A stretch of DNA of 64,000 nucleotides. It comes from Clostridia bacterium (GTDB lineage: Bacteria > Bacillota > Clostridia > Christensenellales > Aristaeellaceae). The notes below the pieces were generated by a model. It did not search any database. It was not told the origin of the DNA and worked only from the letters and a program-made list of their open reading frames with translations. Both the position numbers and the translations under genes were made by a program. The stretch is from contig JAFXRG010000022.1 in the NCBI GenBank assembly GCA_017526525.1, positions 1 to 64,000 of the forward strand. Direction: 5' to 3'. Each line of letters starts with the position of its first letter. Position 1 is the first letter of the stretch. Positions 1-8,706 of the stretch are shown in pieces.

Positions 1-302
1 AGGTGCTGGCGATTGGATATGATTTTCTTCGGGTGATGGCAGCCGGGTTGCCCATGCTGTATCTGCTTTTTGTTTACAGAACTACCCTGCAAGGCTTGGG
101 CGATACAGTGATGCCGATGATTTCCGGCTTTTTGGAATTGGTGCTGCGTGTTGGAGCAGCGCTGCTTCTTCCTGCGATTCTGGGATATTGGGGAGTTTAT
201 CTGGCAGAGATTGCAGCATGGATTGGTGCGGGAGCTTTTCTGATTATGGTCTGTTATCATCGACTGCACAGGCTGACAAATACCGTGGAAGGAACAAAAT
301 GA
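1..302 (+). CDS. MATE family efflux transporter, C-terminal part
   Basis: The window opens inside this gene; about 99 codons remain before the TGA at 300-302. The residues form hydrophobic helices and include the segment LYLLFVYRTTLQGLGDT, typical of the C-terminal half of MATE (multidrug and toxin extrusion) cation antiporters of the inner membrane. The true start lies upstream of the window, and the GTG at position 3 is only an internal codon. Substrate cannot be inferred. A second, full-length MATE gene lies at 28113-29498. Confidence 0.75.
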   Translation, partial: VLAIGYDFLRVMAAGLPMLYLLFVYRTTLQGLGDTVMPMISGFLELVLRVGAALLLPAILGYWGVYLAEIAAWIGAGAFLIMVCYHRLHRLTNTVEGTK

Positions 303-817
303 CGCGATATTGTTCCCTAAGATTTACGCACCTTTCCGGTTTGATGGCTCCCTTTTGGAAAGATATTTCGGAGTTATACGGGCTAACGGTTATTCATTCC
401 ATTCGCCGCCCAAGTAGATACCGTTTTGCTACCTTTGAGGGAAGTAAGACAAAATATGTATGGAAGGGCAGGACAAACGTACAACCGTTGTACTGCCAGA
501 GTGAGCTTTGGGCCTTATGTACCAACGGTTTCAGAGGGTCAGAAGACGAGAGATAAAAGGGAAGACGATGCAGTTGGCCACAGAAGGGAAGAACAGGCGA
601 GATACAGGAGATCCTCATTCACGCAATCTCGCGTTTACAGGAAAAATATACAAGAAAGAAAAGGCGTTTTCAAGTCGTGTCCAGCAACAGGACTGTCGGA
701 CGCCGGAAAACTTCATCTTTTTTTGTTGGTTATTTGTTGGATATAATGATGTATAATAACCATCGTGGCCCTAAGGAACGGCGGGGACATCAGGAAGGGA
801 AGAAGGAGGAACGGATT
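303..817. other. 515-bp gene-free stretch
   Basis: I see no convincing gene here. Three overlapping open frames exist but show no recognisable protein features and no good ribosome binding sites. A 15-bp palindrome, GTACAAC-C-GTTGTAC, lies at 479-493. Two overlapping TATAAT boxes at 742-747 and 752-757 lie 60-75 bases upstream of the HD gene and could serve as its -10 region; no good -35 box pairs with them at 17 bp. The stretch may contain decayed coding sequence. Confidence 0.4.
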
Positions 818-1699: not shown

Positions 1700-1802
1700 A
1701 CAAGGTAAAATACAAGGATATACGTACTTATGTGATTGTATCCAATCGGCAAAACGTGGCTTTGTGTCGCCTTGTGTGGCTTTGAAGGAGGGGTGAAGGC
1801 CG

Positions 1803-1844
1803 ATGATCAAAGTTTTGTTTGTGTGCCACGGGAATATCTGCTGA
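1803..1844 (+). pseudogene. Orphaned 5' end of LMW protein tyrosine phosphatase gene, cut off by the IME
   Basis: An ATG preceded by GAAGGAGG (1783-1790) opens a frame reading MIKVLFVCHGNIC and then stops at TGA. This is the start of a low-molecular-weight protein tyrosine phosphatase up to the catalytic P-loop (CX5R). The rest of the gene lies at 8254-8706, beyond the inserted element. Here it can give only a 13-residue peptide. Confidence 0.85.
1824..1841 (+). repeat. attL core of the IME
   Basis: TGCCACGGGAATATCTGC matches the right copy at 8272-8289 in 17 of 18 bases, with 14 uninterrupted. It is exactly the six codons for CHGNIC of the phosphatase catalytic loop. The crossover must lie within this stretch. 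Confidence 0.85.
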
Positions 1845-1895
1845 TTTTTAAAATGTGCTTAATATTTAAGGCGAATTTGGCATTGATGATTTTTG

Positions 1896-1923
1896 TCCCA
1901 CGATTTGTCCCACGATTTCAGGA
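1896..1923 (+). repeat. IME subterminal repeat, left copy
   Basis: A 28-bp sequence containing CCACGATTTGTCCCACGATT matches the right subterminal copy at 8107-8134 with three mismatches, in the same orientation. It contains two CCACGATTT units in tandem. Its position just inside the element suggests integrase or excisionase arm binding sites, which is inference. Confidence 0.6.
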
Positions 1924-1963
1924 TAGAAATCTGGAATGATGAAACCAGTGACCTACAGCATTG

Positions 1964-1990
1964 AAGGACAGCGGAGAAGCTGTCCTTTTC
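1964..1990 (+). terminator. Rho-independent terminator reading into the IME
   Basis: AAGGACAGC and GCTGTCCTT form a nine-base stem (1964-1972, 1979-1987) followed by TTTC. It would stop transcripts coming from the host HD/phosphatase side and so insulate the element. Confidence 0.6.
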
Positions 1991-1994
1991 ACAT

Positions 1995-2024
1995 GAAAAA
2001 AGGAAGAACTCCCGAAGAAGTTCT
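1995..2024 (-). terminator. Terminator of the leftward 63-aa gene
   Basis: On the minus strand AGAACT-TC-TTCG-GG-AGTTCT (2024-2005) is followed by a T-rich run at 2003-1995. It lies 15 bases after the stop codon of the 63-aa gene. Confidence 0.65.
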
Positions 2025-2038
2025 CTTTGTTGCGTCTC

Positions 2039-2230
2039 TTACGCTTGCTCAGCAACGGGTTCAGCGGCCTTACGGAAAGTGCCGTTGTACAGCTGGCGGG
2101 CAACGATCACGGCGTTCAGCACGTTGCCGGTGGGCTTGGCGCCTTTGCGGAAACCGGCGCGGATGACTTCGACCGGAACCTTGGTGATCTTGGCGGCAGT
2201 GGCGGTGGCGCTGTAATAGTTCTTCTTCAT
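2039..2230 (-). CDS. Small basic protein of the IME (63 aa), function unknown
   Basis: The minus-strand ATG is preceded by a strong GAGGAGG site about eight bases upstream, and the gene ends in its own terminator, so it is very likely expressed. The protein starts MKKNYYSATATAAK and is Lys/Arg/Ala rich, with net positive charge and no cysteine or membrane segment. I do not recognise a family. Basic charge and position near the left end would fit a nucleic-acid-binding accessory such as a recombination directionality factor, but no helix-turn-helix is evident, so this is speculation. Confidence 0.6.
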   Translation of the reverse strand: MKKNYYSATATAAKITKVPVEVIRAGFRKGAKPTGNVLNAVIVARQLYNGTFRKAAEPVAEQA

Positions 2231-2297
2231 GATGATTTCCTCCTCAAGGAAATATTATTCAGAAGACCACCCGGAAGAACCCGAAGGTTTCTTTCTT

Positions 2298-2324
2298 TTG
2301 TTTTGGGTGCGTATATGGTAGAAT
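2298..2324 (+). promoter_or_regulatory. Possible promoter for the secreted cargo gene
   Basis: TTGTTT (2298-2303) and TAGAAT (2319-2324) are separated by 15 bp, with a TG one base upstream of the -10 (extended -10 form). The gene starts 120 bases downstream. The spacing is short, so this is a weak call. Confidence 0.35.
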
Positions 2325-2443
2325 TGCAAGTGATGACTGGAAAGGGTCATCGCGAAATATCTTTGAATTTAACGGGGCAAAGCACTCTCGCATGAAACAA
2401 AGCAACCGGATCAGCCGTTAATTCCTGTGGGAGGGTTTGAATC

Positions 2444-3709
2444 ATGATCAGACGATTTATTTTCATCCTTTTTTCAATGATCCTGTTCATAATGCCGCTG
2501 ATCGGTGTAGCTGAAGAAGACCTGGTTGAGCTGGACAGCGAACATCTGAAATGGCTGGAGTACCGGTGCTCGCTTCCGGACGGCGGACTGGTCCTGACCG
2601 GCGGAATGGGTTTGTCCGGAGCCGGAAAAGAAACAGGCGCATATGTGCTGTGCCTGAATGCGGACCGGACAGTGCGCTGGGAGTATACAGACCGTGAAAA
2701 AAACGGATACACATCGGCGGAGGAAGCAACCGTGCTCCCGGACGGGACAATCGCGGTTGTCGTCTGGGATTATCCCCGAAAGATCGCGGTTAAGTTCTTT
2801 ACGCCCAAGGGGAAGCGCGCGAGAAAAAAACTCGACCTGACAAAACAGTGCGGGACCGGGCTGATATACGATATCACGCCTTCTTTCATCGTGCAGTTTG
2901 AATACCTGGGCAACGCCGCTGATCCGGAGGATTTCCGCTATGAAACGACGCTGTATGACTGGCAGGGAAAAGAGATCGCCCGGTATGACGGGCTTATCGT
3001 GTACGGTGGATACGGCTTTTCAGTCAACGGAAGCGAAGAACTGGTGGCCTTTGGGCAGGATACCTTCTACAACAGTCATGCGGTGCTCATGAAAATCAAT
3101 TGGGAACAGGGCAGCGTCCTGTGGGAAACGGTACTGGATTACCGGCAGCCGGAAACTGATACGGCTGTGCTGGATGACGTTACGGTAACAGAAGACGGCG
3201 GCTATGCCGCACGGGTTCAGGAAAGAAAGCCCGCGGCGGACGATTCATATGAGGATACAAACTACCTGGCCAGGTTTGACGCGGAAGGACGCCTGCTGTG
3301 GATCAGGGACATGGAAAGCCTGTATCGTAACGGGCGCCTGACAAACCTGTTTTCCTGCGGCGGTTATCTTGTTATGCTATTCGAAAGCGGGGAAAACGAA
3401 AGCTGGAGCAAGGGTGAACCCGTCCGTTTCCTTTGGACTGATCCGGACGGAAACAAACTGGGAACCACAGAACTCACACTGAGGCCGGAGGATTTCCGGC
3501 TGACCCGGGACCGGCAGTATCCGGAAGAAGAAGGCGTACACAGATACCCTGTGCTCGCAATAGACCGGATGATCCGCATGGAGGACGGGCTATGGGCGTT
3601 CGCGACGCTTTACATCGCGGAAAAACATGACGGTGACGACGCAATTCTATACCCTTCGGAAGACCAGGAGTTCACCATCATCAGGATTCCGGAATATAAA
3701 CAACCATAG
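2444..3709 (+). CDS. Secreted protein, predicted beta-propeller-like (421 aa), IME cargo
   Basis: The ATG follows GGGAGGG by seven bases. The N-terminus has a signal peptide: basic MIRR, about 18 hydrophobic residues, then a likely cleavage near GVAEE. The mature part contains repeated blocks of the type LPDG...V-hydrophobic...W and NADRTVRWEY, FDAEGRLLWIRD, which resemble PQQ-like or Kelch-like propeller blades. No catalytic motif is seen. It is the only obvious cargo gene of the IME. Its style, exported and Gly/Glu/Asp-rich, matches secreted proteins of the host backbone, so it may have been captured from a related genome. Confidence 0.7.
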   Translation: MIRRFIFILFSMILFIMPLIGVAEEDLVELDSEHLKWLEYRCSLPDGGLVLTGGMGLSGAGKETGAYVLCLNADRTVRWEYTDREKNGYTSAEEATVLPDGTIAVVVWDYPRKIAVKFFTPKGKRARKKLDLTKQCGTGLIYDITPSFIVQFEYLGNAADPEDFRYETTLYDWQGKEIARYDGLIVYGGYGFSVNGSEELVAFGQDTFYNSHAVLMKINWEQGSVLWETVLDYRQPETDTAVLDDVTVTEDGGYAARVQERKPAADDSYEDTNYLARFDAEGRLLWIRDMESLYRNGRLTNLFSCGGYLVMLFESGENESWSKGEPVRFLWTDPDGNKLGTTELTLRPEDFRLTRDRQYPEEEGVHRYPVLAIDRMIRMEDGLWAFATLYIAEKHDGDDAILYPSEDQEFTIIRIPEYKQP

Positions 3710-3741
3710 ACAGGAAAACCGGAAGTTAATATTACAAAGAC

Positions 3742-3775
3742 ATCACCTTGGAGCGCCGGTTCTGGGGTGATTTTC
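3742..3775 (+). terminator. Terminator after the secreted cargo gene
   Basis: ATCACC (3742-3747) and GGTGAT (3766-3771) bracket a GC-rich inner part, followed by TTTTCC. It lies 32 bases after the cargo stop codon. Confidence 0.5.
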
Positions 3776-3782
3776 CATATCA

Positions 3783-3812
3783 GAAAACAGGAACTCCCGG
3801 CGTGGGAGTTCC
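3783..3812 (-). terminator. Terminator of the leftward IME cluster
   Basis: GGAACTCCC (3790-3798) and GGGAGTTCC (3804-3812) make a perfect nine-base stem; on the minus strand it is followed by TGTTTTC. It lies just after the stop codon of the 203-aa gene. Confidence 0.7.
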
Positions 3813-3819
3813 GAATTGA

Positions 3820-4431
3820 TCAAGTGCAGACCTGATAGCATAGTCCTTTGTGACCGTCGTAGGTGTTTTCGAACAGAACCAGACCGCCGTTAGACGGAAA
3901 GCCGCTTTCAGTGGTGAAGTAAAAGCTGTCGCCGTAGTCGCAGAAGAGATTGACGGTTTCATCTGCCCACTGGAAACAGCTCCGCATGGCTTTGCTGAAC
4001 GCACGGCGCTTGTGTTTGTCACCTATGACCTGCCGGATAGTTTGCCCGGCGCGGGATGAGTCGATACGTGCTTGTGCAGCAGGTTCATGATACAGATACT
4101 TCACAGGCTGTCTGGTGACAAGTACGTGCTGAACCAGATGGATAGGGAGCTTTGCGGATTGCTGGATACCGTGAACGGATCCGTCCGCAAAGGTATTCAG
4201 CCAGGTAAACCGGACGCTGAGATGATCACACCCGCCGCTGCGCAGTGTTCTCATCTCGATAAAGCTGCCGATATCCTTGTCGAAGACGGTTTTATCCGTT
4301 TCCATCGCCAGCTTCAGCGCGTCCGGAGAGACCAGAAAACGGCCATGATGACCGTGATCTCTTGAATATGTGGAAAATGAGAAGAAATCGCCGTCGAATG
4401 ACAGCTTAAGTAATAGGCTGGTCATCGTCAT
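3820..4431 (-). CDS. IME protein of unknown function (203 aa)
   Basis: The start is put at the ATG (4431) reading MTMTSLLLKLSFDGD, because AAAGGA lies just upstream; a longer frame to 4473 lacks a site. The first half holds many aromatic and His residues (FFSFSTYSRDHGHHGRF). I recognise no family. It overlaps the end of the preceding leftward gene by 26 bp, which implies translational coupling, and is followed by a strong terminator. It is the last gene of a leftward cluster pointing away from the relaxase. Such clusters in mobilizable elements may carry transfer accessory or host-protection functions; nothing in the sequence decides this. Confidence 0.65.
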   Translation of the reverse strand: MTMTSLLLKLSFDGDFFSFSTYSRDHGHHGRFLVSPDALKLAMETDKTVFDKDIGSFIEMRTLRSGGCDHLSVRFTWLNTFADGSVHGIQQSAKLPIHLVQHVLVTRQPVKYLYHEPAAQARIDSSRAGQTIRQVIGDKHKRRAFSKAMRSCFQWADETVNLFCDYGDSFYFTTESGFPSNGGLVLFENTYDGHKGLCYQVCT

Positions 4432-4663
4432 CACCAATCCTTTCTGTTTTGGTCGGGAAAAGGTCAGGCTCAACGCCGATAATGGTGTACTGACCTGGGA
4501 CGGTAAAGGTTTCGCCTATATTGGCGTGATACTGGACGAAAGCGTCCTGCATTTCCTTCTGGGAAGGAAAAGTGATGTGGAGATTGACGGAAGCATCAGG
4601 ATCGACGTGGTGGGGGTCGTAGGAGATCATGTCAATATGGAGTGTCCACATCTCTTTCAGCAT
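4406..4663 (-). CDS. IME acidic small protein (85 aa)
   Basis: The minus-strand ATG at 4663 follows AAAGGACG by about ten bases. The protein is acidic (C-terminus rich in Asp: ERIGDDDDQ) and has no membrane segment or cysteine. It has no recognised family. It overlaps both neighbours in the leftward cluster (4632-4663 and 4406-4431), an arrangement that supports a real, coupled operon. Confidence 0.6.
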   Translation of the reverse strand: MLKEMWTLHIDMISYDPHHVDPDASVNLHITFPSQKEMQDAFVQYHANIGETFTVPGQYTIIGVEPDLFPTKTERIGDDDDQPIT

Positions 4664-4883
4664 GAGCGGTCACCGTCCTTTCTTTGTTTTGGCAGTAAAC
4701 ATAGTTGGTCTCGAAGGATTCTTCGTAAATCATTTCATCGAGCAAGGCACTGACGCGGGCTTTTGCCCAGCGGGCACCAAATGGCATTGTGACTGCTTTG
4801 CTGGCTATGCCATGCAAAGTCGCTAAGTCAATAGTGATATCGTGGGCTTGGTACGCGGAGAGCCGAAGCCAGGTGCAAAGCAC
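4632..4883 (-). CDS. IME small protein, start uncertain (51-83 aa)
   Basis: The frame opens at a GTG (4883) but would then run through the candidate oriT and overlap the relaxase start. An ATG at 4787, giving a 51-aa protein starting MPFGARWAKARV, is an equally possible start. Neither has a convincing ribosome binding site. The C-terminal part is charged (CQNKERTVTAHAERD). It overlaps the next leftward gene. The divergent arrangement from the relaxase would fit an auxiliary DNA-binding protein at oriT, which is inference only. Confidence 0.4.
   Translation of the reverse strand: MLCTWLRLSAYQAHDITIDLATLHGIASKAVTMPFGARWAKARVSALLDEMIYEESFETNYVYCQNKERTVTAHAERDVDTPY
4796..4840. other. Candidate oriT just upstream of the relaxase
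   Basis: An imperfect inverted repeat, CTTTGC-TGGC (4796-4805) with GCCA-T-GCAAAG (4809-4819) and loop TAT, is followed 12 bases later by TAGTGATAT (4832-4840), immediately before the relaxase. In pMV158-type (MobV) plasmids the relaxase recognises a stem-loop followed by a TAGTG-containing nick region directly upstream of mob, so layout and motif both fit. Confidence 0.45.
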
Positions 4884-6317
4884 CGGGCAAATGGCATGAT
4901 GATTGCGAAGGAAGCTGGGTACGAAAGAGCGACCCGAAGCGAGACTATAGATCGGTCACGATCGCATCTGAATGAGTATACCGGGTATCGAAGCGGAAAA
5001 GAATTTTGGGAACAGATGGAAGCGGATGCTGCTGCATATCGTGTTCAGGTTCCGGGGAAAACGAAGTCGGGTGAGCCGATCATTCGTGAGAAGGGACTGC
5101 AGCATAATGCCGTCATAGGATGGGCGGCGATTTATAATCCTCCGGCTGAAGTTTGTATGTCATGGGATCGTGATACATACGAGAAATTTTTCAATGACTG
5201 TCGTGAATGTATGTCATTGATCTCTCCGATTTTTCGGAAAGATAATCGTATCATGAGTGCGGTTCACTGGGATGAAGGCGTGCCGCCGGAGGAAGGTCAT
5301 CTTCCCGACCTACATGCTCATGATCTGGGTGTCTGTAAAGACCAGGATGGTCGTTATTGTGGAAACCTAATTGATGCAAAGTTGCTGGTTAAGATCAACA
5401 GCATGTTCCCCAAAATGATGCGTGAGCGCGGCTGGGAGATGGACGACCTCGACACAACTGACTTCGAACGCGCCAAGGGTGATGAGGAATATCGACAGGA
5501 GCGAAACGAAAAAAGGAAGAGGTCTGGTCTGTCCGTGAATTCACATTTGCGCCAGAAATCATATCAGATGGCAGAGGACGCTTCGCGGTTAATTGAAGAT
5601 GCAATTCAAATGCATGATACTGTTGTCCAAAAGGATCAGGAGATAGAAACCAAACGAACGAAGCTTGAAGATTTTCATTCAAGGTGGAGCGACTGGTATA
5701 AAGGTTTCTATAAGGAAATGGCCGGAGAAGAGTATCCGGAGGACAGAATTTCTTTGGAGAGTATTCCACGAGCCGGGAAGAAATTCAAAGAGCGACTGAA
5801 ACGGGAAGCGGAAGTTGAAATTGAAAAATCGAAGGAACAAATGCTTCAGGAAGCCAGGTCACAGATCGAAAATGAACGTCAGAGGATGGAGAATTCGATC
5901 AGAGAAAAACTTGACCATGAACGTACGGAAATGGAAGCTGAATTTGCTGAACGTGAAAAGGTTCAAGAGGTAGAAAATGATAAACGAAAATCAGAACTTG
6001 ATGCTCGGGAAGCCGAGATCGAGATGAGAGATAAACAGCTTCAAGCTGTCATGGACGCCGCGGAAAAGAACCTTAAGAAAACCGAATTGTTGAAAACATG
6101 GAAAGATGATCTGGAATGGGAAGAAGCCACAAGGAGGATTAGGGTTGGCGGACGAACCGTTCATGATATCATTCTGGAACAGAGGGAAAAACGTCATCCT
6201 GAAGCGGTGGATCATAAGGAACATCTTGAAGGAGAATTGTCGGCACTTTATGCGCAGCGTAGACAATGGAATGGAACTCTGGATCAGATTTCCGGAGAAA
6301 GACAAGGTGGAGAATGA
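4842..6317 (+). CDS. MobV / Mob_Pre family relaxase (491 aa)
   Basis: Relaxases of this family nick oriT and lead the strand into a recipient through another element's secretion channel. The N-terminal 220 residues carry the family marks: IDRSRSHLN (normally DINPSRSHLN), then AVHWDEGVP, followed after a short insert by LHAHDLG, equivalent to the HxDE...HxH metal site. An upstream His (GAKHR) may be the catalytic His of motif I, which favours the GTG start at 4842 over the ATG at 4896. Residues from about 270 to 430 form a long charged coiled coil (EIEKSKEQMLQEARS and similar), usual for Mob_Pre C-termini. The insert inside the HxH motif is unlike pMV158 MobM, so this is a divergent branch. 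Confidence 0.8.
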   Translation: MGLVRGEPKPGAKHRANGMMIAKEAGYERATRSETIDRSRSHLNEYTGYRSGKEFWEQMEADAAAYRVQVPGKTKSGEPIIREKGLQHNAVIGWAAIYNPPAEVCMSWDRDTYEKFFNDCRECMSLISPIFRKDNRIMSAVHWDEGVPPEEGHLPDLHAHDLGVCKDQDGRYCGNLIDAKLLVKINSMFPKMMRERGWEMDDLDTTDFERAKGDEEYRQERNEKRKRSGLSVNSHLRQKSYQMAEDASRLIEDAIQMHDTVVQKDQEIETKRTKLEDFHSRWSDWYKGFYKEMAGEEYPEDRISLESIPRAGKKFKERLKREAEVEIEKSKEQMLQEARSQIENERQRMENSIREKLDHERTEMEAEFAEREKVQEVENDKRKSELDAREAEIEMRDKQLQAVMDAAEKNLKKTELLKTWKDDLEWEEATRRIRVGGRTVHDIILEQREKRHPEAVDHKEHLEGELSALYAQRRQWNGTLDQISGERQGGE

Positions 6318-6699
6318 AACTCACCAGTCCGGTCAAGGGCCCGAAGGGCTCGTGAAACCCTTGACCGTGACGGTGATAAAAGTACAAAATAAGAAGCAGC
6401 GGGCGGGAGCAACAGAGATGTGCTTCCGCCCTCTTGTCTGCCGTTTTCTTGTCCGGCAATAAGCATAAATTACTTATGTTCAGCATTCAAATTACCCACG
6501 ATCAGCATCATCATGTCCCATTTATAATAATTATATAAAGAGCTTTACATAAGAAATTATAAAAGAAATTTTCTTCACATTAAAACATTCACAGAAAACC
6601 GAAATGTATATTTCTATTTCAGTCAGAAAGTGGTACAATCATTACCGCTGTAGGCACTGGTTATGCGTAATAACGAGAAAGGAGTTATGAGTCACAGCA
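6318..6699. other. 382-bp gap between relaxase and integrase
   Basis: No gene is convincing here. The first part holds a terminator-like hairpin (6401-6431). The stretch 6465-6660 is AT-rich with several A/T runs, including AATAATTATATAAAGAG, and probably contains the integrase promoter, but no single well-spaced -35/-10 pair stands out. Confidence 0.4.
6401..6436 (+). terminator. Terminator downstream of the relaxase
   Basis: GGGCGGGAGCA (6401-6411) pairs with TGCTTCCGCCC (6421-6431) in 10 of 11 positions plus a G-T wobble; TCTTGTCTG follows. The T-run is weak. Confidence 0.5.
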
Positions 6700-6707
6700 A
6701 TGGCTGA
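6687..6707 (+). other. Possible leader minigene overlapping the integrase start
   Basis: The best ribosome binding site (GAAAGGAG, 6677-6684) is two bases from an ATG at 6687 that reads MSHSNG and stops at TGA 6705-6707, eight bases inside the integrase gene. The integrase ATG at 6700 is 15 bases from the same site, longer than usual. The minigene may therefore set or limit integrase translation. Confidence 0.35.
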
Positions 6708-8073
6708 CAACAAAAAGGAGAGGAAGGATCCTAAAGGACGCACGTTACGAAAAGGAGAGTCCTTCACCTACAAACGCGGAAGACTGGTGTATCGTTTCAA
6801 AGAAACAATAGATCATAAGACGGTTGAATTCACATCCTATACCCTGACTCCCAAGGATCCAATTCCGAAGGGCGTGCGTCAGCATAAGGGTGAGTCCCTT
6901 CGCGATAAGGAAGTAGAGTATGACATCAGCAAGCAGAATGCCATTGATCACAAGGGCGGCGGCATGACAGTGCTTGAGCTGATGCAGAAGTTCTCTGCGA
7001 TCCGGTCAAAGGATGTGCGTGAGACGACTCGCAAAGGATATCAGACACAGCTGAACCTGATGCAGGAAAATAAGACCGCCATCCAGATGGCGTCCAAGAG
7101 GATCAGAGATGTGAATGCCGTGGACGCGGAAGAGTGGATGATGGATCTTCATAAGGTTGAAGGACGGTCATATTCTTCCCTGCATACCTTGAAGGGAATG
7201 CTTCATCAGAGCTTTATCATGGCGAAGAAGGCGAGATGGGTCATTGACAACCCTTTTGACTTTTCCATGAAAAAGAAGGCGTATGGTGGAACGAAGACCA
7301 GGGAAGCCCTGAGCCGTCATGATACGGAACGTTTCCTGGATTTCGTACAGCGTGATAAGCATTTCAGCCGGTATTTCGACGGGTTCTTCATTTTGTTCAA
7401 TACTGGGTTGAGAATTTCTGAGTTCTGCGGGCTGACTCCGGACGATATTGATTTTAATCAGCATGTGATTCGTGTCCGCAGACAGCTTCTGCGTGTATAC
7501 AACGAAGAAAACAGTATCAATCAGCTTTATATCGAAGAGCCGAAAACTGCGAATGGTACCCGGATCGTTCCTATGTCAGCAGGTGTGGAGCAGGCGTTCC
7601 GTCATGTGATTGATAATAGGAAAGCGATCAAAGAGACCATCGTGTGGGATGAACTGCATCAGAACAGTGCCACCTGTTTCCTCTGGCTGGATAAAAATGA
7701 TCAGTATGAGGTTGCGCAACACTGGCAGAATCACCTTCGCTGGGCAAGGGACAAGTTTAATAAAATCTACAAAGATGAACTGCCTCCCATCAGTCCTCAT
7801 GTCCTCAGACATACGTTCTGCTCGAACTGCGCGTCTGCCGGAATGTCTCCTAAGACGTTGCAGATGATCATGGGTCATTCATCTATTGAGTTTACACTGA
7901 ACGTGTATACGCATATCGAAGACGAGGACATTGTGCAGAGCTTCCAGTATCTGTCCGAGAGGGGCAAGGTTGGCTTTGGTGACTATACCGCGTCTCAGAT
8001 TGTCCCGGATGACGATGAGGATGAAGGTGAAGTCGATTTGAACGAGGAAGCCGATGATGACGATGAAGAATGA
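6700..8073 (+). CDS. Tyrosine recombinase (integrase) of the IME (457 aa)
   Basis: It catalyses site-specific integration and excision of the element. Catalytic residues of the phage_integrase fold are visible: Arg in NTGLRISEFCGL, Lys-containing hairpin EEPKTANGTR, HVLRHTF (HxxR), MGHSS (His) and the tyrosine in NVYTHIED. An N-terminal arm-binding domain and a SAM-like core-binding domain (about 85-190) precede it, as in Tn916-family integrases. The C-terminus is unusual: about 25 residues, nearly all Asp and Glu. The gene ends 199 bp before attR. Its target appears to be the catalytic-loop codons of an LMW-PTP gene. Confidence 0.9.
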   Translation: MADNKKERKDPKGRTLRKGESFTYKRGRLVYRFKETIDHKTVEFTSYTLTPKDPIPKGVRQHKGESLRDKEVEYDISKQNAIDHKGGGMTVLELMQKFSAIRSKDVRETTRKGYQTQLNLMQENKTAIQMASKRIRDVNAVDAEEWMMDLHKVEGRSYSSLHTLKGMLHQSFIMAKKARWVIDNPFDFSMKKKAYGGTKTREALSRHDTERFLDFVQRDKHFSRYFDGFFILFNTGLRISEFCGLTPDDIDFNQHVIRVRRQLLRVYNEENSINQLYIEEPKTANGTRIVPMSAGVEQAFRHVIDNRKAIKETIVWDELHQNSATCFLWLDKNDQYEVAQHWQNHLRWARDKFNKIYKDELPPISPHVLRHTFCSNCASAGMSPKTLQMIMGHSSIEFTLNVYTHIEDEDIVQSFQYLSERGKVGFGDYTASQIVPDDDEDEGEVDLNEEADDDDEE

Positions 8074-8106
8074 GCCCAAAATCAATCGTGGGACGGGGTT
8101 CCATTT

Positions 8107-8134
8107 TTCCACGATTTGTCCAACGATTTCCGGA
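8107..8134 (+). repeat. IME subterminal repeat, right copy
   Basis: This is the partner of 1896-1923, with 25 of 28 bases identical and the same orientation. A third related unit, ATCGTGGGAC, lies inverted at 8084-8093. It sits directly after the integrase gene. Confidence 0.6.
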
Positions 8135-8144
8135 GTAAAAAATC

Positions 8145-8250
8145 TGCTCATAAATGAGTATGATTTTTTGGACAGACTACAAAATGGTAGAAAAGTATAC
8201 CTTTTTCAGGGAAAATGCCGGAAAAAATACTCATAAATGAGGGTGATTTT
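8145..8250 (+). repeat. Two direct repeats containing the palindrome CTCATAAATGAG
   Basis: A 23-bp sequence occurs at 8145-8167 and again at 8228-8250 with three mismatches. Each copy holds the palindrome CTCAT-AA-ATGAG (8147-8158, 8230-8241). The second copy directly precedes the new start of the phosphatase gene, so a protein binding here could control excision or expression of that gene. Confidence 0.55.
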
Positions 8251-8253
8251 GGA

Positions 8254-8706
8254 GTGAAAATTCTCTTTATCTGCCACGGGAATATTTGCCGAAGCGCGGC
8301 GGCAGAGGTGGTTCTGAAGCAGATGGCAGGGGAAGCGGGAAGACGGGACCTGCGGATTGCTTCGGCGGCAACAACCCGGGAGGAAATCGGAAACGATATT
8401 TATCCCCCGATGAAAAAAGCGCTGAACAGCAGCGGATACGCATGCATTCCGCACGCGGCCCGGCAGACGGTACGGGCGGATTATGCTGCGTGGGATTATA
8501 TTATCGGGATGGATGACGAAAACATGATGGATCTGAAGTATATTTACGGTGGCGATCCGGAGGGAAAGCTGTCCATGCTGATGGACTGGGCCGGACGGCC
8601 GGGCCGGGAGATTGACGATCCGTGGTATACAAGGGATTTTGCCGGCGTACTGAAGCAGATTGAGGAAGGATGCCGGGGAATCATGGAGAAGACTGCGCAT
8701 GAATAA
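8254..8706 (+). CDS. Low-molecular-weight protein tyrosine phosphatase, 5' end supplied by the IME (150 aa)
   Basis: The enzyme removes phosphate from protein tyrosine (or arginine) residues. The P-loop CHGNICRS (CX5R then Ser) is at the N-terminus, and DPWY near the C-terminus carries the general-acid Asp. The GTG at 8254 is chosen as start because GAGGGTG lies eight bases upstream and the product (VKILFICHGNIC) matches the family N-terminus; an ATG at 8215 would add 13 unrelated residues. All bases before about 8272 come from the inserted element, which thus encodes a mimic of the lost N-terminus. The stop overlaps the next gene by 8 bp. Confidence 0.88.
   Translation: MKILFICHGNICRSAAAEVVLKQMAGEAGRRDLRIASAATTREEIGNDIYPPMKKALNSSGYACIPHAARQTVRADYAAWDYIIGMDDENMMDLKYIYGGDPEGKLSMLMDWAGRPGREIDDPWYTRDFAGVLKQIEEGCRGIMEKTAHE
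8272..8289 (+). repeat. attR core of the IME
   Basis: TGCCACGGGAATATTTGC is the right-hand counterpart of 1824-1841 and again encodes CHGNIC in the phosphatase frame. It marks the right edge of the element. Confidence 0.85.

Follow-up and report, generated by a model that had tools for sequence, protein, structure and literature searches.

The window analyzed here, a 64,000-nucleotide stretch of a Clostridia bacterium genome (contig JAFXRG010000022.1, forward strand), contains an element of about 6.4 kb with a Tn916-type integrase gene, located between the stranded 5′ end of a low-molecular-weight protein tyrosine phosphatase (LMW-PTP) gene (1803–1844) and a complete LMW-PTP gene (8254–8706), the first codons of which are element DNA. 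Comparison of sequences argues that the element was inserted within the codons of the phosphate-binding loop (P-loop) of the phosphatase and replaced the 5′ end of the gene, leaving a full-length chimeric gene; we put the probability of this reading at roughly 0.94. Such comparison shows where the element ends, where the crossover falls and which codons were donated, as well as the repeated use of the site across many Clostridia.

We propose that the integrase would recombine the element into the LMW-PTP gene within the phosphate-binding-loop codons (CHGN|ICRS). Just past the integrase gene, the element has a ribosome site and a start codon, followed by codons that encode the first beta strand as far as the catalytic cysteine. 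Insertion thus replaces the 5′ end of the host gene and gives a full-length chimeric gene, and the old 5′ end stays stranded at the far side of the element. Insertion would presumably be reversible, and the chimeric gene may be expressed by read-through from the integrase gene or from an unseen promoter. Selection may have favored conserved active-site codons as the target since they are present in most hosts.

Layout of the element and of the interrupted gene

At the left end (attL), the displaced fragment 1803–1844 (plus strand) runs from ATG to TGCCACGGGAATATCTGC followed by TGA and encodes MIKVLFVCHGNIC with an immediate stop, and not with a stop two codons past the core as stated in a first-pass annotation of this DNA. 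Similar orphan 5′ ends were found in other genomes. At the right end, the complete gene starts with GTG at 8254, continues as VKILFICHGNICRSAAAE... and stops at 8706; translation could also begin at the in-frame ATG at 8215. As the annotation had described, a ribosome-site-like GAGGGTG is present at 8239–8245 (plus strand), and the start and the codons VKILFI (8254–8271, plus strand) appear to be supplied by the element, by analogy with the pair of loci L031/L063 and with the 79 junctions considered below. The gene product is an LMW-PTP: PF01451 matches 8254–8703 with 2.1e-27, above the cut-off, and the P-loop CX5R(S/T) is present as CHGNICRS. The body of the gene, of host origin on this reading, spans 8286–8706 (plus strand). 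When both flanks were joined by script, a single open frame was obtained (MIKVLFVCHGNICRSAAAEVV...).

It had been claimed that an 18-bp attachment core corresponds exactly to the codons for CHGNIC. The same codons are indeed found on both sides, but the exact repeat (TGCCACGGGAATAT) is 14 bp long, and 17 of the 18 positions agree, with one mismatch. Its copies, both on the plus strand, are located at 1824–1837 and 8272–8285, 6,448 bp apart. As 109 different 14-mers repeat within the window, a repeated 14-mer alone is weak evidence; this one carries weight because it represents the same codons of the same gene, with one copy on either side of the integrase gene, and because of the relatives described below. 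When 45 genomes of the genus were scanned for the P-loop pattern, 31 matched; a second copy was seen in the window's own genome only, so that no relative was encountered which lacks the integrase and still retains the fragment. The scan delimits the left end for the element of the window only.

The same gene lies next to relatives of the integrase

The survey was started from the integrase, not from the phosphatase, with an alignment of the window integrase and nine relatives as query. The collection scanned comprised 84,980 species genomes; at least 572 stretches were confirmed, and the best 80 were kept, to which all counts out of 80 refer. An LMW-PTP gene lies 163–543 bp downstream of the integrase match, on the same strand, in 70 of these 80 loci (median 209). 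The remaining ten comprise two with leader and core without a phosphatase, two contigs that end within 700 nt, and six others, each of which has the leader ATGATNAAA...TTYRTN followed by TGC and a 14-base core changed at one to three positions.

A leader coding for about MIKILFVC is present in 79 of the 80 loci. When searched with a regular expression that covers the leader as far as TGYCAY, 74 of the 80 matched. Both controls were empty: 0 of 80 matched on the reverse strand and 0 in the DNA upstream of the integrase, of which at least 600 nt were available in 68 of the 80 loci. The six loci that the expression missed comprise three phosphatases with CWGNICRS (L145, L146, L222), one with CCGNICRS (L214), a leader with CWGN and no phosphatase (L157), and a contig with 5 nt after the integrase match (L175). 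The leader count of 79 takes these loci into account, which also show that the second loop residue is not always histidine. The leader of L157 carries a TGCTGGGGC core, which matches the CWGNICRS loop of L145, L146 and L222 (CCGNICRS in L214); perhaps a branch of the integrase is matched to a variant target.

Judging from their labels, most of the 80 loci belong to Lachnospiraceae or to other Clostridia; one is labelled Enorma, and another is a bin with the label Gastranaerophilales. Within the genus of the window, 13 matches to the integrase exceeded 220 bits; in 11 of these cases an LMW-PTP gene follows, 0.2 to 7.2 kb away. The first-pass observation is confirmed, and the arrangement is far more widespread than it had supposed. 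Matches to the integrase were also found in 17 phage records, five of which were fetched; one of these (L342) has the leader and a phosphatase, which the other four (L339–L341 and the Tn916 record L343) lack.

Position of the crossover and donated codons

One element occurs in two genomes of the window's genus (loci L031 and L063). Over 1,912 bp, a length measured from where one contig begins to the last base of the core, its two copies are 99.84% identical; the phosphatases in which they end are 49% identical. Between L192 and L206, no difference is seen in the 722 nt that precede the core or in the first 11 core bases, after which the two diverge. We built a step profile from 22 pairs, formed among 29 of the 79 junctions and chosen for leaders at least 0.94 identical next to gene bodies less than 0.8 identical; this choice of pairs selects for the drop itself, but not for its place. 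Identity was 0.91–1.00 at core bases 1–11 and then 0.50, 0.36, 0.64 and 0.27 at the free codon positions; it persists through TGCCACGGCAA and falls after it. As the step falls inside the core, the codon for the active-site cysteine comes from the element and that for the arginine from the host, with the crossover within about the first 11 bases of the right core copy (8272–8285). The contig of L186 ends exactly at ...TGCCACGGCAA, inside the core, and that of L043 begins 2 nt before the core, as would be expected where strains differ in occupancy. The earlier proposal that the insertion lies in the P-loop codons and that the gene is rebuilt by element DNA is strongly supported by comparison, namely by these shared elements, which end at the core in differing phosphatases, and by the second core copies, the before/after pair and the occupied loci described below.

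The arrangement in the window might also have arisen by gene duplication and decay, in which case the segment 1803–1844 would be what is left of a second phosphatase gene, with the integrase between the two by chance. Two LMW-PTP matches do occur in some genomes (G004, G037). But the fragment ends at the core, stranded 5′ ends in other genomes likewise stop matching at the core, identity between elements stops there too, and 70 of the 80 integrase loci adjoin the same gene. We rejected duplication, which those 70 loci, the L031/L063 and L192/L206 boundaries and the step profile refute in practice; its probability is close to nil.

Insertion into a host gene was also weighed against the phosphatase being cargo, integrase and phosphatase traveling as one unit with no host gene involved. 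The near-constant spacing between integrase and phosphatase would fit this, as would the phosphatase of the phage-record locus L342 and the presence of a phosphatase after the integrase in 4 of 65 loci of the viral collection (one within 600 nt, three about 2.3 kb away). A single unit is at odds with the exchange of leaders and gene bodies, however. The 22 leader-matched pairs share the leader and differ in the gene body; conversely, seven pairs have gene bodies that are 0.85 or more identical, and the leaders of four of these (L160/L177, L166/L218, L031/L033, L044/L046) are only 0.41–0.65 identical; one pair has 0.78, and two share the leader as well. Moreover, forms with leader and core without a phosphatase exist (L167, L185, L228, L233, L276), and in the genus the next gene (YkgJ-like) stays beside the phosphatase in 5 of 34 loci. 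On the exchange of leaders and on the phosphatase-less forms, we rejected the phosphatase as cargo, an explanation that we consider very improbable.

It could finally be argued that integration is real but that the downstream gene is dead or silent when the site is occupied, the in-frame start being a by-product of the attachment sequence. No promoter was found by consensus in the leader, in agreement with this view. Against it, an in-frame start is kept in all 79 junctions (74 ATG, 5 GTG), and the donated codons vary far more at third positions, as expected if a working protein is kept: over 61 distinct leaders, mean entropy was 0.66, 0.20 and 1.36 at codon positions 1, 2 and 3, and such a third-position excess is the pattern that selection on the protein would give. 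A silent gene therefore seems unlikely to us, although less so than the two preceding explanations. With regard to the window, the scan for consensus promoters and terminators gave none in 7900–8300, and one promoter-like site, at chance level, in 1650–2000. Taking this into account, read-through from the integrase gene is as likely as the control by the element that the first-pass annotation had assumed.

Far ends, stacked elements and a before/after pair

Among 56 genomes searched, 18 have at least two copies of the leader and core pattern on the same contig and strand; the reversed-pattern control gave none. Copies are spaced from 4.7 kb (G049) to 93.4 kb (G053). In 15 of the 18 genomes the upstream copies show the core followed by non-phosphatase sequence, and the translated stretch contains a stop; the exceptions, in which none was reached, are the older copy of G071 and one of the two in G081. 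Second copies of the core mark either the opposite end of an element or elements that have stacked. G053, G071 and G081 each have three successive copies, so that elements accumulate in tandem; on the contigs of G053 (L371, G053:C135:1-9000) and G081 (L481, G081:C9), several have stacked at one phosphatase gene. In G083 and G081 one upstream copy follows another integrase, and is thus a junction between neighboring elements and not a plain displaced end.

A before/after pair was also obtained. The DNA located directly upstream of an uninterrupted phosphatase gene in G391 is the left flank in G062, with 93% identity over 1,534 nt. The G062 stretch runs into the core, the match to G391 stops at TGCCACGGCA, and the integrase-phosphatase junction is found 14.9 kb further on. 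Pristine empty sites for the elements of G074 and G053 were sought and were not found. G145 has a phosphatase with the leader, and the 18 kb of its DNA that were examined gave no match to the integrase.

Occupancy seen from the phosphatase gene

For a view from the gene side, 200 genomes were drawn from the family of G088 (Lachnospiraceae bacterium), and an LMW-PTP match was found in 151. The sample consisted of 70 places, namely the 30 best matches and 40 picked by hand down the list before the upstream DNA was seen. Loci with at least 1,200 nt upstream were considered usable (58 of 70), and those with an integrase of this family above 120 bits occupied. Occupied loci amounted to 22 of the 58 (9/24 in the best-match set, 13/34 in the hand-picked set), or to 19 of 55 if G088, G050 and G065, already known through their integrase, are left aside; four further loci have weaker integrase fragments. 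Insertion at the 5′ end of a protein gene had been called rare in the first-pass annotation; for LMW-PTP, it is common. In the genus, a full integrase was found at 8 and a partial one at 3 of the 20 loci with at least 3 kb upstream; this count excludes the window's own locus as well as L061, where the phosphatase start is not normal.

Some loci show other arrangements. L035 and L040 lack an integrase of this kind and have a peptidase gene, according to the reading of the protein sequence, just upstream of the phosphatase. Four loci (L062, L050, L055, L048) have a different leader, MTQTRILFICH, common to two phosphatase types (RSPMAE and RSAAAE/RSVAAE), and no integrase was detected in them; this hints at another element group that may use the same site. 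The second phosphatase match of G004 (G004:C20:10304-10651) covers query residues 30–145 only; turnover of elements may have removed the 5′ end of this gene.

Integrase and other features of the window

The integrase (6700–8073, plus strand) has the arm-binding domain PF02920 (2.6e-11) and the catalytic domain PF00589 (6.3e-27), and is thus of the Tn916 type. Residues R238, K282, H367, R370, H393 and Y403, which we take to be the catalytic positions of a tyrosine integrase, are invariant in the alignment of ten rows (the window and nine relatives). On a FastTree tree of 144 integrases, which warns of long branches, the phosphatase-targeting label needs 18 changes, vs a shuffled mean of 46.6; integrases that target the gene are therefore clustered, yet do not form one clade.

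The other open reading frames (ORFs) tested in the element gave no supporting family match. They code for 63 amino acids (aa; 2042–2230, minus strand), 421 aa (2444–3709, plus), 217 aa (3820–4473, minus), 85 aa (4406–4663, minus) and 474 aa (4893–6317, plus). The last one is possibly a relaxase, which it resembles by a MobV-like motif only. The first-pass annotation had labelled the element an integrative and mobilizable element, which calls for a relaxase gene, and database support for one was not found: phmmer against PDB gave nothing, Pfam and NCBIfam gave only sub-threshold unrelated matches, and no homologue was present in 149 other genomes drawn from the family.

Tandem CACGATTTG-type repeats (family D2) are located at 1893–1935, inside the left end, and a matching repeat at 8104–8134, inside the right end. 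Their positions just inside both ends are those expected for arm sites of the integrase, for which they are candidates. A 29-nt repeat (family D7, 8139–8250) occurs twice, at 8139–8167 and 8222–8250, around the palindrome CTCATAAATGAG (8147 and 8230); its second copy overlaps the ribosome site.

Left of the element, the displaced upstream leader of the host gene (1740–1802, plus strand) gives local alignments of 28–34 nt with L032, L053 and L058, which have an integrase upstream, and with L047, on a short contig (z 6.8 to 8.8). This short resemblance to leaders of other element-bearing LMW-PTP loci hints that an earlier element may already have replaced the 5′ end. Further left, 677–1699 encodes an HD-CE domain protein (PF24391), with 85% identical DNA in G019; as it has no match in the 34 phosphatase loci of the genus that were fetched, it is perhaps cargo of an earlier element. 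The first 340–372 bp of the window (1–372), which read as the end of a MATE-like gene, show 99% identity with DNA of G002, G016 and G012, species with phosphatases only about 80% identical to that of the window; this may reflect recent transfer or a mobile end.

Discussion

Several observations weigh against a site-specific element that rebuilds the LMW-PTP gene. In the step profile, identity is only 0.68 at the base just before the core and 0.77–0.86 at a few leader positions. The two further genus integrases of the 13, both in G043, have no LMW-PTP gene downstream: in G043:C2 (L094) an L031-type element stops on the right at CACGGAA, which does not lie in a phosphatase gene and is likely a secondary insertion site, and the integrase of G043:C54 is without a phosphatase. 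The leader is shown by 9 of the 65 viral-collection loci, 21 of those contigs ending within 700 nt, and phages L339–L341, the integrases of which are 54–59% identical to that of L195, show no core within 1 kb. The same holds for Tn916 (L343), which has an integrase of the same kind (PF02920 plus PF00589; 44.6% identical to that of L195), and for a vanB-type element, presumably Tn1549-like: unlike the LMW-PTP elements, neither has a core within 1 kb after the integrase. On the gene side, no integrase above 120 bits was found in 36 of the 58 loci, and none was detectable in 9 of the 20 genus loci. Neither an empty site nor an excised circle was seen in the window species. The G391/G062 pair is not a pristine empty site, since remnants of older elements are found upstream, namely part of an integrase in G391 and one more leader-like copy in G062. 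The tree of 144 integrases gave no support for a single origin of those targeting the phosphatase, and most genomes are metagenome bins.

A further-reaching reading, possible but on balance doubtful, is that LMW-PTP in Clostridia is a captive gene, the active site of which would be put together anew from two genomes by one element after another of a single integrase subfamily. The promoter, translation start, first strand and catalytic cysteine codon would be exchanged repeatedly by these elements, only the rest being inherited from the host; occupancy would then switch tyrosine phosphorylation in the host.

LMW-PTP emerges as a large and widespread site at which mobile DNA docks in Clostridia of the gut and rumen. 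The core copies are spaced by 4.7 to 93 kb, and integrase, leader and TGCCACGGCAA together serve as an anchor to delimit such elements in many genomes. A catalytic loop joined from element and host codons at each insertion makes the choice of conserved coding targets by integrases testable. In Clostridia that resist genetic manipulation, the site could also offer genetic tools a defined place of insertion.

LMW-PTP was not known as a target to the first-pass annotation, and in the open-licence papers that made up the literature searched we found no report of it as an attachment site. The same literature yielded no account of this integrase subfamily in such a role, of its breadth in Clostridia or of a crossover in an active-site loop. 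Replacement of the 5′ end of a host gene is, as a mode, already known from the dusA islands; insertion at a 5′ end is also seen at the prfC site. SXT/R391 elements donate promoter and start to prfC. Their insertion is site-specific at the 5′ end of this gene, and they resemble the LMW-PTP elements in using the 5′ end of a host coding gene but differ in being conjugative elements of gammaproteobacteria (passages of PMC2654960, PMC3715440). Tn916 prefers AT-rich DNA at many sites (passage of PMC3715440). The elements described here do not belong to the Tn916 family proper, of low target specificity and with AT-rich sites, as 70 of the 80 relatives are at one gene.

Integrative and conjugative elements of Streptococcus use the 5′ ends of rbgA, ftsK and ebfC; upstream sequence is sometimes replaced and the N-terminus is left unchanged (passages of PMC4701971), unlike that of LMW-PTP, which is replaced. 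Prophage PhiM247 of Lactobacillus crispatus, the excision of which was measured, has an attachment site that includes the 5′ end of msrA. It also uses the 5′ end of a host enzyme gene, in another gene and host, and a swap inside a catalytic loop, as proposed for the LMW-PTP elements, is not described in the passages on PhiM247 (PMC10763512).

The closest likeness is with the dusA-associated islands and prophages, which have variable cargo (passages of PMC4482086). Both there and in the window, a tyrosine integrase gene accompanies insertion at the 5′ end of a gene, element DNA replaces the host 5′ end and supplies the first beta strand, and the full frame is restored. The target of the dusA islands is a tRNA dihydrouridine synthase and their hosts are Proteobacteria, whereas the LMW-PTP elements are found in Clostridia. 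For dusA elements, it was shown by polymerase chain reaction that excision restores the original 5′ end; for LMW-PTP, the corresponding observation is at the sequence level, the joined flanks reading in frame. According to the same passages (PMC4482086), no known cofactor- or tRNA-binding residue is affected in dusA, whereas in LMW-PTP the crossover falls inside the catalytic loop itself.

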